Part shown: positions 50,584-55,644 of the stretch, in pieces
Numbering within the stretch: the stretch's first letter is position 1
Layout: each line of letters starts with the position of its first letter
Assembly (NCBI RefSeq): GCF_027943945.1
Contig: NZ_AP027141.1
Coordinates: forward strand, 868,001 to 932,000
Direction: 5' to 3'
DNA length: 64,000 nucleotides
Source of the DNA: Microbacterium terricola
GTDB lineage: Bacteria > Actinomycetota > Actinomycetes > Actinomycetales > Microbacteriaceae
Notes under the pieces: model-generated
Databases searched by the model: none
Seen by the model: the letters and a program-made list of their open reading frames with translations, nothing else
What the model was told of the DNA's origin: nothing
Position numbers and translations under genes: made by a program

Positions 50584-50952
50584 GTGAAGTACGTCATCAT
50601 GTTCACCTCGACGCCCGACCTGGCAGCCGATGTCACGGCCGACACCAACACCGAGGTGTACGAACGCGTCTATCGCTGGTTCGGAGAGCACGCCGACGTG
50701 ATCGCCGACAGCGGCGCCGAGCTGCAGCCGGTCTCCACGGCGACCACCGTCGCGCACGGCTCGGGCGGCCCGGTCGTCGTCGACGGCCCGTTCTCAGAGG
50801 CCAGAGAGGTCATCGGCGGCTTCTCAGTGATCGACGTGGCCGACCTCGATGCGGCCATCGCCGTCGTGAAGACCTGGCCGCCGCTCGAGCTGCCGGGCGT
50901 GGCGGTCGAGATCCGCCCGATGGTCACCGACTACGACCAGTTCGAGCAGTGA
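50584..50952 (+). CDS. DGPF/YCII-related protein
   Basis: 122 aa, ferredoxin-like fold of the YCII superfamily. The defining motif appears as VVVDGPFSEAREVIGGF (about 61-77). Function unknown; these proteins are encoded beside ECF sigma factors of group 42. GTG 50584 has GAAAGGA upstream. Its stop overlaps the sigma gene start by 4 bp (GTGA), indicating coupled translation. Confidence 0.9.
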   Translation: MKYVIMFTSTPDLAADVTADTNTEVYERVYRWFGEHADVIADSGAELQPVSTATTVAHGSGGPVVVDGPFSEAREVIGGFSVIDVADLDAAIAVVKTWPPLELPGVAVEIRPMVTDYDQFEQ

Positions 50953-52199
50953 CACGAGAGGATGCTGCCGCCGCGGGTGATCAGAATGCCCGCGGCGCAG
51001 CATCCGATCACGAACTCGCCCGCGTGGTGCGGGCGGAGTCGGCACGGATCGTGGGGGCGCTGACGGCAGCGACCGGGAGCCTCGACGTCGCCGAGGAGGC
51101 GACGGCCGAGGCGATCGAGGAGGCGCTGCGGCAGTGGCGGCGGCGCGGCGTGCCGACCAACCCGGGCGGCTGGCTGATGCAGGCCGCCCGCCACAACGCC
51201 CTCGACCGGCTGAGGCGGGAGAAGACCTACCGCGGCAAGCTCGCGCTCCTCGCTGAGCAGCCCGTGCCGGCCGTGCCGGCGGCCGGAGACCCGGACGAGC
51301 GACTGCCGCTGCTGTTCGGATGCTGTCACCCCGCCCTCGCGCCGGAGGCGCAGCTCGCCCTGACGCTGCGGGCCGTGCTCGGGGTGACGACCGAGCAGAT
51401 CGCGCTCGCCACCCTCGAACCCGCCGCCACCGTCGGCCAGCGGATCTCGCGCGCGAAGCGCAAGATGGCCGACACCGGCATCCCCCTCCGGATCCCCGAA
51501 CCCGCTGAGCGCCCCGGCCGGCTCGACATCGTGCTCACCGTGATCTCGGTCATGTACGGCTCCGCCCACCTCGCGGCGGGTGCCGGGGCCGCCGCCGACC
51601 GGGATCTGGCGGACGACGCGCTGTGGCTGGCCCGCGTGGTCGCCGAGGCGCTGCCGACGGAGGCCGAGGCCGCCGGGCTGCACGCCCTGCTGCTGTTCCA
51701 CCGCGCGCGGGAGTCGGCCAGGGCCGTCGACGACGAGCTCATCCTCCTGGGCGACCAGGATCGCAGCCGCTGGGATCCGCGGCTCATCGCCGAGGGGCAG
51801 ACCGAGCTCGCCCGCGCGGCGGCGCGGAAGAGCCCGGGTCGCTGGCAGCTGCACGCCGCGATCGCCGCATGCCACAGCGACGCGGCGACGCTCGCCGAGA
51901 CCGACTGGCTGCAGATGCTGGTGCTCTACGACATGCTCCTCGGCTACGACCCGTCGCCGATCGTTCGGCTCAATCGGGCGGTGGTGCTCGCCGAGGTGGC
52001 CGGGGCCGCCCCGGCGCTGGCGGAGGTCGATGCATTGGGGGAGCGCCTGCAGCGCTACCACCTGTGGCACGCCGTGCGCGCGCGGATGCTGACGGCACTG
52101 GGACGCGACGACGAGGCGCTCGCCGCCGACCTGCGTGCCCTCGAGCTGACCGCGAACGATGCGGAGCGTCGGCTGATCTCGCGCCGGCGAGGTCTGTGA
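50949..52199 (+). CDS. ECF sigma factor, group ECF42-like, with C-terminal TPR-like extension
   Basis: 416 aa. Sigma region 2 lies at about 22-95 (AEEATAEAIEEALRQW ... GGWLMQAARHNALDRLRREK) and region 4 at about 120-170 (LALTLRAVLGVTTEQIALA ... VGQRISRAKRKM). A long helical C-terminal domain (about 190-410) has TPR-like repeats and the conserved YDMLLGYDPSPIVRLNRAVVLAE. This architecture, and the upstream DGPF gene, define ECF42; there is no separate anti-sigma factor, and the extension is thought to control activity. Confidence 0.9.
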   Translation: MTREDAAAAGDQNARGAASDHELARVVRAESARIVGALTAATGSLDVAEEATAEAIEEALRQWRRRGVPTNPGGWLMQAARHNALDRLRREKTYRGKLALLAEQPVPAVPAAGDPDERLPLLFGCCHPALAPEAQLALTLRAVLGVTTEQIALATLEPAATVGQRISRAKRKMADTGIPLRIPEPAERPGRLDIVLTVISVMYGSAHLAAGAGAAADRDLADDALWLARVVAEALPTEAEAAGLHALLLFHRARESARAVDDELILLGDQDRSRWDPRLIAEGQTELARAAARKSPGRWQLHAAIAACHSDAATLAETDWLQMLVLYDMLLGYDPSPIVRLNRAVVLAEVAGAAPALAEVDALGERLQRYHLWHAVRARMLTALGRDDEALAADLRALELTANDAERRLISRRRGL

Positions 52200-52292: not shown

Positions 52293-54236
52293 CTAGGCGA
52301 GCGCGTGCGCGATGAGGCGCTCGAGAGTCGTCATGCCGTCGCGCGACAGGATCGACTCCAGATGCCCCTGCACGGACGCGAATCCCTCCCCGCGGAGCGC
52401 GTACACGTCGCCCGACGCGTCGGCCGAGATCTGCGCCTCGCCGATCCGCGTCGCACCGGCGGCCGCGCGGGCCGTGAACGTGTTGTAGAACCCGATGGAC
52501 GCGGGAGTGCCGAACACGTCCACGGTCTTCTGCAGGCCCTGATGCGGCCGCTCCAGCGGCGCCAGGTCGAGCCCGAGGCGGTCGGCGAGGATCTGGTGGC
52601 TCAGGCACACCGCCAGCAGGGCACGCCCGGTGTCGAGGCGCCGGGCCACGATGTCGCGGAGACGGTGCATGCGGGGGCTGTCCGGGTCGCGCGGGTCGCC
52701 GGGTCCCGGACCGGACACCACCAGCTCGGCGGCATCCAGCTCGGCGTCGGTGACCTCGCTCCAGTGCACGATGCGGGCGTCGAGGCCGAGATGGCGCAGC
52801 TGGTGGGCGAGCATCGTCGTGAAGCGGTCCTCCGCGTCGACGACGACGGCTGACCGCCCGGCGAACGGGCCGGCCTCGGTCGCGCCCTGCGGGTTCAGCC
52901 AGAACGAGGCCAGCCGCGCGTTCCGGGAGGCGAGCAGCGCCGCGATCTCGGGGTCGTCTGCCAGCGGTGCCGCGGCGACGGCCGGGGCGTCCTCGTCGAT
53001 GACGTCGCCCGCCACCGCGTCGAGCGGCGCCGCGGCGCCGGTGCGGGGCACCGCGCCGATCGCGCCCAGCACGCCGGCAGCCTTCCCATGGGTCTCGCTG
53101 ACCTCTCCGTAGGGGTCCGAGTGGCGCACGAGCGTCGCGCCGACCGGGACGCGCAGCATCCCGTCGACGAGATAGGCGGTGCGGATGAGGATGGGGGCGT
53201 CCAGGTCGTGGGTGGGTTCACCGGCATCCGACCCGACGTCCGATGCGCGCGGCGTGAACAGCGCGGCGACACCCGAGTAGTAGCCGCGCGGGCCGCGCTC
53301 GTGCCGGGTGATCACCGTGCACGCGTTCTGCATGGGCGAGCCGGTGACGGTGGGGGCGAACATCGTCTCGCGCAGGATGTCGCGCGGGTCCAGCCGCGAG
53401 CGACCCCGGAGGACGTACTCCGTGTGGGTGAGCCGCGACATCTCCTTGAGGTGCGGACCGGTGATGCGGCCGCCGTCCGAGCAGACGGCGCTCATCATCT
53501 TGAGCTCTTCGTCGACGACCATGAAGAGCTCCTCGGTCTCCTTGGCAGACTCGAGGAATTCGCTGAGGGCGGCCGCCGTGGCGCCGCCGGCCGGGTGGCG
53601 GAACGTGCCGGAGATCGGGTTCATCGTCACGACGCCGTCCTGGGCGCTGACATGCGCCTCGGGGCTCGCGCCGACCGCGATGTGCCCGGGCGTGATGACC
53701 GCGAACGTCCAGTACGCACCGCGCTCCTGCTCGAGGAGGGCGCGGAACCAGGTCAGGGCCGCGGTGGTCGGGTCCGCGTCGACAGCGGCGGTGAAGTCGC
53801 GGCGGATGACGAAGTTCGCACCTTCGCCGCGGCCGATCTCGTCCGAGATCACCCGGCGGACGATCTCGGCGTACTCCTCGTCGGGGATGTCGAAGCCGGC
53901 GTCGCGCAGAGGCACCGGCGCGCCGGGGAGCGTCGAGAGGACGTCGGCGCGCGGCAGCGCGACACGTCGGTCGACGACGAGGCAGCGCAGCGGCGCCCCG
54001 TCGTCGTGGCACTCGAATCCGCGTTCGCGCACCTGCCGGAACGGCACGAGCGCGAGCACCTCGCGCGGCCGGCCGGTGGCGTCGATGAGGGGGATGTCGG
54101 CGAGCAGATCGACATCGACGATCTCGCCGGTGAGCACCTCGACGGTCGTGCCGTCGCGGGCGATCAGGGCGAAGGGTGCGTCGGCGGCGATCAGTCGGCT
54201 GAGCAGCTCAGCGGCGCGGGGAGCGTCCTCGGTCAT
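52293..54236 (-). CDS. trpEG: Fused anthranilate synthase (TrpE-TrpG), PhzE-like
   Basis: 647 aa. The N-terminal 420 residues form the chorismate-binding domain ([45 protein letters not shown]). After a linker, the rest is a class I glutamine amidotransferase with [27 protein letters not shown], nucleophile Cys in [11 protein letters not shown] and the His-Glu pair in GHLES. Together they make anthranilate from chorismate and glutamine. The same fusion occurs in PhzE (ADIC synthase), but no phenazine genes are near and a Trp attenuator lies upstream, which favours tryptophan-linked anthranilate synthesis. ATG 54236 follows GGAAGG. Confidence 0.88.
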
Positions 54237-54280
54237 CGAAGAGCCTTCCGTGGAGTCGCGGGCGGGTGCTCACATGAGAA

Positions 54281-54300
54281 AGACCGCCCTCGGGCGGTCT
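54281..54300 (-). terminator. Intrinsic terminator of the trp attenuator
   Basis: On the minus strand AGACCGCCC-GA-GGGCGGTCT forms a 9-bp stem followed by TTCTC. It lies 44 bp before the trpEG start. Its upstream arm also pairs with the antiterminator arm. Confidence 0.8.
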
Positions 54301-54341
54301 GTGGTCTCGGGTTCGCGAAACACACCGCCTCAGCGGGTGTG
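54293..54341 (-). promoter_or_regulatory. trp attenuator: antiterminator and pause stems
   Basis: Stem 1:2 joins CACACCCGC (54341-54333) to GGCGGTGTG (54329-54321). Alternative stem 2:3 joins GGCGGTGTG to CACAGACCGCC (54303-54293). Stem 3:4 is the terminator. Segment 1 begins at the base immediately after the second Trp codon, so a ribosome stalled there would mask it and free segment 2 for antitermination. Confidence 0.78.
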
Positions 54342-54365
54342 CCACCAGGTGGGGTTCGCGAACAT
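54330..54365 (-). CDS. trpL: trp leader peptide
   Basis: 11 codons encoding [11 protein letters not shown] and TGA, with two consecutive TGG codons at positions 7-8 (54342-54347). It begins MFA and has the WW pair like Streptomyces trp leader peptides as I recall them. The start codon follows a TAGTTT hexamer by 6 nt, so the transcript is probably leaderless. Too short to appear in routine gene calling. Confidence 0.8.
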
Positions 54366-54371
54366 GGGCCG

Positions 54372-54377
54372 AAACTA
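54372..54377 (-). promoter_or_regulatory. -10 hexamer of the trpL-trpEG promoter
   Basis: Reverse-strand TAGTTT, 6 nt before the trpL ATG. No clear -35. It sits within the short gap after ltrA. Confidence 0.5.
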
Positions 54378-54408
54378 CCACAGCGACGGATCGTGCGGAC
54401 GCGGTGCG

Positions 54409-55644
54409 TCACCGGGCGTCCGCCTCGAGCGCGCCCTCCTGGTGCCGGTAGCCGACCGTCTCGTAGCCGACGACCGTGACCACCGGAGAGGCGGCGACGA
54501 TCAGCAGGGCCGTCCCGATCGACGCGCCCGCGGAGACGGCGAGGACGGCGGCGGCCAGGACGACCACCCCGCCGAGGAAGAGCCAGATGTGGAAGGGGTC
54601 GAAGCGGCGCAGCAGGAGCGTGTAGAGAGTGAACAGCATGATCTCGTAGACGAGCACGGGCACCGCGACGCAGATGAGGGCGAACGCCGCGTCGACGTGC
54701 GCCTCGTGCGAGATGACCTGCGCCGCGACGTGCAGGCCGGCGCCGACGCCGACCAACGAGCCGAACAGGATGATGTGCCCGTACCCCCACAGCCATGCCC
54801 GTGCAGGGTGGCGTGCCAGCAGAGTGCCCGACGGCATCGTGAAGTACACCCACCACAGCGCGAACACCAGGCTGGTTCCGCCGAGGGCGAGCAGGGCGGC
54901 CTCGACGCTCCACTCGTGCTCCGCCTCGACGACGGCGGAGATCGCGAGGATCGTCCCGAGGATGATCTCGCCGAGGGTGATGATGACGAGCAGCCCGTAG
55001 CGCTCGCCGATGTGGTGCGGATGCCAGGGGGTGCGGCCGAAGCGCAGCTCGGCGAACACGGGGCCGGCGAGTTCGAAGAGGATGAGGACGGTCGTGATGG
55101 CGAAGGTCGTCCCGATCGGCAGGTTGAGGAAGATCAGGACGACCCAGAACACCTGGGCGATCGCGATGTTGCCCGCGTAGGCCAGGCACGTCTTCCGCCT
55201 CGCCGCGTCGTGCGCCGCCGCGCGCAGCCAGAGCGCGATGGCGGCGACGCGCATGATCACGTAGCCGGCGACCACGACCGTGTTGTCGAGGTGGCCGCCC
55301 TCCGCGATGGAGTGGAAGACCGGCGGAACACCCAGGGCGAGCACCAGCACGCCGACCATCTCGACCAGCGTCGCCACCCGGAAGAAGATGTCGTCGTTGT
55401 CGTACGCCGACGCGAGCCACGAGTAGTTGATCCAGGCCCACGTCACCGCGAAAACGGTGAATGCGAACGCGCTCAGCGCGGTGCTGAGGTCGCCGATCTC
55501 GAGGTAGTGGGCCGCCTGGCCGGAGATCTGGCTGAACGCCACGACGAACGTCAGGTCGAACAGCAGCTCGAGCGGGGTCGAGGCGCGGTGACGCTCCTGC
55601 GGGTCGCGCCCCGTCATCCTGCCGACATGGTGGCTCATGCTCAT
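54409..55644 (-). CDS. ltrA: Low-temperature-requirement protein A family membrane protein
   Basis: 411 aa, about ten to twelve transmembrane helices. It matches the LtrA family: [19 protein letters not shown] near the N-terminus, [21 protein letters not shown] in the middle with the conserved His/Glu, and the [15 protein letters not shown] helix. The name comes from a Listeria mutant unable to grow in the cold; the biochemical role is not established. The ATG at 55644 is supported by TAGCGT ending 6 nt upstream. The trp attenuator follows its 3' end. Confidence 0.9.

Follow-up and report, generated by a model that had tools for sequence, protein, structure and literature searches.

The fused gene trpEG of the soil bacterium Microbacterium terricola is very probably controlled by a ribosome-mediated tryptophan attenuator on a leaderless mRNA, and its product appears to be the sole anthranilate synthase candidate of its genome. 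The attenuator lies at 54365-54276 on the minus strand of the analysed DNA (the window, 64,000 nt; GCF_027943945.1, NZ_AP027141.1, positions 868,001-932,000; all coordinates are window positions), upstream of the trpEG ATG at 54236 (Table 1). Its anatomy agrees with what an earlier note had read from this DNA: a complete trp attenuator with an 11-codon leader and tandem TGG codons ahead of trpEG, a segment 1 that begins (54341) directly after the second TGG (54342), a terminator with a U-rich end, and a Shine-Dalgarno sequence (54249-54244) followed by the trpEG ATG. Segments 1 and 2 can form 8 base pairs, with a single C bulged out; 6 base pairs are possible between GGCGGT of segment 2 and ACCGCC of segment 3; and segments 3 and 4 form an 8-bp hairpin with a 4-nt loop (54300-54281) that runs into the U-rich end.

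Table 1 Features of the trpEG leader region, listed in the direction of transcription (window positions).
Feature	Position	Strand	Remarks
−10-like element TAGTTT	54372..54377	−	6 nt 5′ of leader ATG; predicts leaderless mRNA, start = that A
Leader ORF	54330..54365	−	ATG 54365, TGA 54330; 11 residues + stop
P0 5′ strand GTTCGCGAA	54355..54363	−	nt 3-11; start codon's last base into codon 4; paired in the minimum free energy (MFE) fold, covarying
Tandem Trp codons TGGTGG	54342..54347	−	codons 7 and 8
Segment 1 CACACCCGC	54333..54341	−	first base directly after second TGG; partner = segment 2
Segment 2 GGCGGTGTG	54321..54329	−	partner = segment 1 or segment 3
P0 3′ strand TTCGCGAAC	54311..54319	−	nt 47-55; paired in the MFE fold, covarying
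Segment 3 AGACCGCC	54293..54300	−	ACCGCC common to terminator and antiterminator
Segment 4 GGCGGTCT	54281..54288	−	3′ arm of terminator
U-rich end TTTCTC	54276..54281	−	first T = segment 4's last base
Shine-Dalgarno-like GGAAGG of trpEG	54244..54249	−	
trpEG, 647 aa	52293..54236	−	chorismate-binding domain fused to glutamine amidotransferase
Near neighbours of trpEG			LtrA, YCII protein, sigma factor

The stop codon of ltrA (54409-55644, minus strand) is separated from the leader ATG by 43 nt only (54366-54408). The whole predicted promoter must therefore sit in this gap or extend into ltrA. A YCII-domain gene and then a gene for a sigma-70 factor with a DUF6596 domain occupy 50584-52199 on the plus strand.

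For comparison with relatives we assembled 94 loci: the best 80 of a larger number from a scan of named genomes, 13 further genomes from a family survey, and M. terricola's own. A leader with tandem Trp codons (WW leader) is present in 91 of the 94; the three others are two cut contigs (L017 and L049) and a trpEG gene that has no leader (L112). The distance from WW to the stop is exactly three codons in 83 of these 91, and 5 to 11 codons precede WW. TGGTGG is invariant in a 56-sequence alignment (A1) whose rows were picked for carrying it; A1 covers 56 of the 91 loci, near-duplicates and the irregular L036, L072, L073, L077, L080, L082 and L109 being omitted. A TANNNT element precedes an in-frame start in all 91 loci, at a distance of 6, 7 and 8 nt in 52, 38 and 1 of them, against a background of 72 in 22,750 positions, the leader start having been picked nearest-first to satisfy this rule, which favours it somewhat. 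Shine-Dalgarno-like 4-mers 5′ of the leader start occur in none of the 91. Given this spacing and the lack of such a 4-mer, the leader mRNA is predicted from the −10 position to be leaderless and to start at the A of the leader ATG.

A terminator was found by script in 89 of the 91 loci (none for L072 and L080, a poor one in L109), and in an alignment of 61 sequences fitted to the structure 98.1% of the cells of its helix are paired. The longest 2:3 run reaches at least 5 bp in 83 of 89 loci and the longest 1:2 run in 86 of 89, both counted with G-U pairs allowed and without a chance baseline. Since relatives retain the WW leader together with the terminator and the alternative pairings, and show double-sided changes in the stems, the comparison that the earlier note had proposed as a test does not refute the attenuator. 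The Rfam search proposed alongside it came out less well: RF00513 (Trp_leader), which follows the same logic, matches 54353-54274 across its whole model with 23.4 bits only (E 0.008; gathering score 41), and the window contains no match to any Rfam family at its gathering score. A covariance model of our own (R1) identifies a single copy in the M. terricola genome at E ≤ 0.01. Across the phylum it has matches in 46 of 296 genomes, of which the weak ones near 25 bits were not used. The simple pattern TGGTGG-N9-TGA occurs at 38 places in the genome against 12 for the reversed control, too many to be of use.

Two relatives depart from this layout. In L112 (genome G027, a 1.4-Mb relative that lacks canonical TrpE by scores), trpEG has no WW leader and the attenuator has been lost or replaced. 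L109 (genome G003) retains the leader with a degenerate terminator, and its genome also carries canonical TrpE.

The earlier note had also pointed to a repeat shared by the leader codons and the stretch between segments 2 and 3, suggesting that it might allow a further fold. The repeat is real. Its core, TTCGCGAA, is its own reverse complement, and the two copies lie 43 bp apart, start to start, so that the repeat is also an inverted one. It yields a further, conserved helix, P0, which joins the leader 5′ end to the stretch that follows segment 2 (the linker). Because MAFFT misregistered P0 in many distant loci, duplex energies and a model-fitted alignment were used to test the helix. The duplex test used the 87 loci with a usable linker, reduced to 64, 48, 33 and 23 representatives at four redundancy thresholds. 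At each threshold, none of 20,000 permutations reached the mean energy of the cognate leader/linker duplexes (z −9.0, −8.0, −6.8 and −5.9). Only in 3 of 64, 3 of 48, 5 of 33 and 5 of 23 cases does a locus's own linker outrank every other (median rank 0.14-0.17); the signal lies in the mean, not in single best partners. Locus by locus, P0 reaches p ≤ 0.05 against shuffles of the locus's own linker in 60 of 87 and is weak in the rest.

As kinship had to be allowed for, we compared disjoint sister pairs on the TrpEG tree. The cognate duplex was better in 13-23 pairs and worse in 3-8 (sign p 0.003-0.049 over 12 settings); the first variant gave 20 better, 8 worse and 9 ties (p 0.036). The same test applied to the leader and a piece of the terminator, as a control, was null (14 better and 15 worse; 12 better and 11 worse). 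At the stricter distance, scoring P0 by its best ungapped stem gives 13 versus 6 in the sign test (p 0.17, not significant) and p 0.009 in the Wilcoxon test.

The structure-fitted alignment of 61 sequences displays double-sided changes at all seven P0 pairs, where 80.8% of the cells pair, and at two of the five pairs of 1:2; the terminator helix 3:4 covaries as well. Its whole-structure values were reached by none of 500 shuffles, although the alignment leans to its fitted structure and kinship alone can beat such shuffles. The pair counts derive from a search of 72 of the 94 loci, in which 61 of 73 matches passed a stricter E-value; the other 12 comprise four antisense matches and eight true distant leaders (L036, L069, L070, L075, L077, L080, L081 and L082). 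A further alignment, A2, has double changes at five of seven P0 pairs in rows that are those with P0 in register, and is thus biased toward P0.

Folding of the M. terricola leader places P0 beside the terminator. The MFE of the 90-nt leader is −43.4 kcal/mol, which none of 200 dinucleotide shuffles equals, and the corresponding fold contains the terminator together with the 9-bp helix P0 (54363-54355 with 54319-54311). Within the first 56 nt, P0 alone contributes −10.1, 1:2 alone −10.4 and both together −20.5 kcal/mol; the minimum of −25.8 kcal/mol has another inner pairing, and the best fold that keeps 1:2 lies at −24.9 kcal/mol. Pair probabilities are 0.46-1.0 for P0 and 0.14-0.44 for 1:2, and individual bases of segment 2 have a probability of 0.38-1.0 of being paired. 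The exclusive pairings 1:2, 2:3 and 3:4 described in the earlier note thus exist as alternatives and are kept in relatives, but the exact 1:2 helix is not the minimum once P0 is allowed; it sits 0.9 kcal/mol above it, which counts against our main reading.

We then folded the leader with masks for the ribosome, whose footprints were assumed. Without a ribosome, the RNA made ahead of segment 3 folds into P0 and the inner hairpin (−25.8 kcal/mol). A stall at codon 7 or 8, imitated by the mask, yields the antiterminator 2:3 once 72 nt have been made (−13.4 kcal/mol). When the masked ribosome stands at the stop codon, P0 is left to close by itself (−10.1 kcal/mol) and the 3:4 hairpin appears. As long as segment 4 has not been transcribed, the states obtained are those that the model expects. 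In the complete leader of 90 nt, the terminator comes out ahead even under the stall mask. This also counts against the main reading and means that the switch, if it operates, must be kinetic, with timing deciding the outcome.

We propose the following sequence of events. Transcription would start at the A of the leader ATG. When charged tRNA-Trp is scarce, the ribosome would stall at codons 7-8 with its footprint over the P0 5′ strand and segment 1, breaking P0 and 1:2; segment 2, freed because of this footprint, would pair with segment 3, and the polymerase would read through into trpEG. When tryptophan is ample, the ribosome would reach the UGA and cover segment 2, 3:4 would form and transcription would stop. 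If no ribosome initiates in time, P0 would enclose an inner hairpin in which segment 2 is engaged (either 1:2 or a nearly equivalent variant), the start region would be buried, and transcription would stop as well. P0 would thus act as a default-off lock, the role that has been proposed, in the part of PMC11857589 consulted, for the hairpin H1 of the Corynebacterium glutamicum ilvBNC leader.

A serious rival, which we hold to be possible though the less convincing account of P0, is a classical attenuator of three helices in which P0 forms the base of the 1:2 hairpin, serves to stabilise it or to pause the polymerase, and has no task at the start codon. P0 does enclose 1:2 and adds 10.1 kcal/mol to it, and a 1:2 pause hairpin is standard in the trp leader of E. 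coli. A pausing role has also been assigned to the apex of H1 (PMC11857589, excerpt). Yet P0 spans the end of the start codon on an mRNA that has no Shine-Dalgarno sequence, and the double-sided changes described above for the 61 sequences run through the whole of P0 and only part of 1:2; both points speak against this rival.

A second alternative takes the palindrome TTCGCGAA for the DNA operator of a repressor, the fold of the leader being secondary. It would account for the two copies 43 bp apart and for a weak direct-repeat signal, which in the permutation test reaches z −3.0 and −2.2 and counts against the main reading; palindromic pieces would give such a weaker signal. By duplex energy in disjoint pairs, the inverted (complementary) reading (sign p 0.016 and 0.011) outdoes the direct repeat (p 0.15 and 0.093), whereas among best ungapped stretches, where the direct repeat gives p 0.18 and 0.053, the order is reversed at the stricter distance (0.053 for the direct repeat against 0.17). 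In several relatives (L037, L064 and L069, for example) the two pieces are complementary and yet neither palindromic nor alike. The complementary reading of the repeat is better supported than the direct one, and we regard an operator as very unlikely.

The identity of the enzyme bears on what the attenuator controls. The closest solved structure to the trpEG product is 3r74 (E 8.6e-151), which we take to be PhzE, and none of the NCBIfam TrpE models matches the product at its cut-off. Alignments of TrpE and PhzE did not separate the two by the catalytic His. In the genome as a whole, profile models place PabB (338 bits, cut-off 328) and isochorismate synthase (242 bits, cut-off 225) over their cut-offs, and no TrpE; trpA, trpB and trpC also score above theirs. 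About 380 kb separate trpB from trpEG, and trpCBA is located elsewhere than trpEG, in keeping with the earlier placement of trpEG outside a trp operon. Judged by these models, trpEG would be the genome's only anthranilate synthase candidate and not a side gene. That the enzyme is instead an ADIC synthase (PhzE) of secondary metabolism under incidental tryptophan control, as 3r74 and the silence of the TrpE models might suggest, is highly improbable in view of (i) the lack, in a genome that has trpA, trpB and trpC, of any further TrpE that reaches its cut-off, (ii) the second, 43%-identical copy in a genome of the same genus (G215), which follows genes for DAHP synthase and isochorismatase (L178) and has no WW leader, and (iii) the fused enzyme of Streptomyces venezuelae, titled anthranilate synthase in a reference of PMC5036795 (excerpt). 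To go by its two neighbours, the L178 trio is possibly a phenazine-type cluster; the near neighbours of trpEG listed in Table 1 include no such cluster.

TrpEG is found in 98 of 99 genomes of the genus of M. terricola and TrpE of the canonical type in one, from which the PhzE-like fusion seems to have taken the place of canonical trpE there. The best match to the TrpE model scores 489 bits in G208 and at most 294 in the other genomes, all 99 staying below the curated cut-off of 517.7. In four genomes (G002, G063, G079 and G208), canonical trpE is flanked by hisI and a gene for a membrane protein, each identified by eye, and the 350 nt upstream of it hold no TGGTGG; in M. terricola the corresponding site is empty. 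At the trp locus of M. terricola itself (L098:8316-9353), a 345-aa protein with a carboxypeptidase-regulatory-like domain is encoded between the membrane gene and trpC. Outside the genus, canonical TrpE is absent from 5 of 12 TrpEG carriers versus 5 of 106 non-carriers (Fisher p 0.0009), in a comparison that judges TrpE presence from scores, ignores kinship, counts two of the five carriers from one genus, includes a non-carrier that is 75% complete, and scores four fragmentary TrpE genes as present.

Leader and helix recur in a second genus of large genomes, which we take to be Streptomyces-like. TrpEG is present in 58 of its 61 genomes, and 27 of the 30 fetched loci have a leader of the leaderless type with three Trp codons (WWW). 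P0 reaches p ≤ 0.05 in 19 of the 26 testable loci among these 27 (median −13.6 kcal/mol), some of the helices containing an internal mismatch; because many of the sequences are alike, the 19 are not independent events. In each of nine multi-copy genomes analysed from this genus (G514, G531, G533, G549, G551, G554, G555, G560 and G565), the leader precedes one, and no more than one, of the two or three copies compared, extra copies in G531 and G560 lying outside this count.

The arrangement of the attenuator is of a known kind, the Streptomyces type. The literature was consulted in excerpts, which bear out the earlier statement that trp attenuators are known in Streptomyces (PMC8079986, PMC1262725) and Corynebacterium (PMC1262725). 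The trpL1 leader of Streptomyces lividans is leaderless and precedes a monocistronic trpE (PMC8079986). It shares tandem Trp codons, two hairpins and a U-rich stretch with the M. terricola leader, for which a leaderless start and a following anthranilate synthase gene are likewise predicted, and differs in having three Trp codons in 18 residues rather than two in 11; the excerpt of PMC8079986 mentions no P0-like helix. The attenuator of the S. venezuelae anthranilate synthase gene (Lin et al. 1998), which stands ahead of that gene as here, is experimentally supported according to PMC1262725 and PMC4833913. The C. glutamicum leader has tandem Trp codons and an attenuator too, but heads a trp operon and not a single fused gene (PMC1262725, PMC11995493). 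Judging by its figure legend, the attenuator alignment in PMC1262725 begins at the Trp codons and ends at the terminator. None of the titles, abstract openings and excerpts consulted describes a P0-like helix for a trp leader, which is a provisional result.

The idea of the lock is not new, since PMC11857589 proposes a start-shielding hairpin for the ilvBNC operon of C. glutamicum. According to the excerpt, that mRNA is leaderless, with its start site one nucleotide from the leader start codon, and the early hairpin H1 is proposed to shield the initiation site, block initiation and act as an antiantiterminator; P0 (nt 3-11) likewise covers the initiation region of the predicted leaderless leader. 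ilvBNC responds to branched-chain amino acids and is another operon; the likeness drawn here between P0 and H1 is one of position and proposed role. What is added here to PMC11857589 are the covariation and sister-pair tests for P0, and to the earlier note the P0 helix and the apparent replacement of canonical trpE by trpEG in the genus. Taking P0 and H1 together, we tentatively suggest, as an idea with a reasonable chance that we would still place short of even, that a start-shielding helix is a general, selected feature of leaderless attenuators in actinobacteria, in which the first ribosome is given a single time window, failing which the gene remains off.

In textbook attenuation, the ribosome loads at a free Shine-Dalgarno sequence. 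Here, no such sequence was seen upstream of the leader, whose start region is paired with sequence further along the same leader, so that P0 offers a mutable test of how leaderless translation is coupled to transcription. The leader marks the presumed housekeeping copy as opposed to other copies in an ambiguous enzyme family, and draws attention to a genus where trpE has seemingly given way to a PhzE-like enzyme. The comparisons also lend support to a start-shielding idea that was proposed for one ilvBNC operon (PMC11857589, excerpt). A computer model of classical attenuation reproduced the tryptophan response of S. venezuelae trpE only when RNA triplexes were included (PMC4833913, excerpt); if the general reading is true, P0 may be what that model lacked. 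The switch should allow the first enzyme of tryptophan synthesis only when tryptophan is low and, on the same reading, would sense the capacity for translation initiation besides tryptophan.
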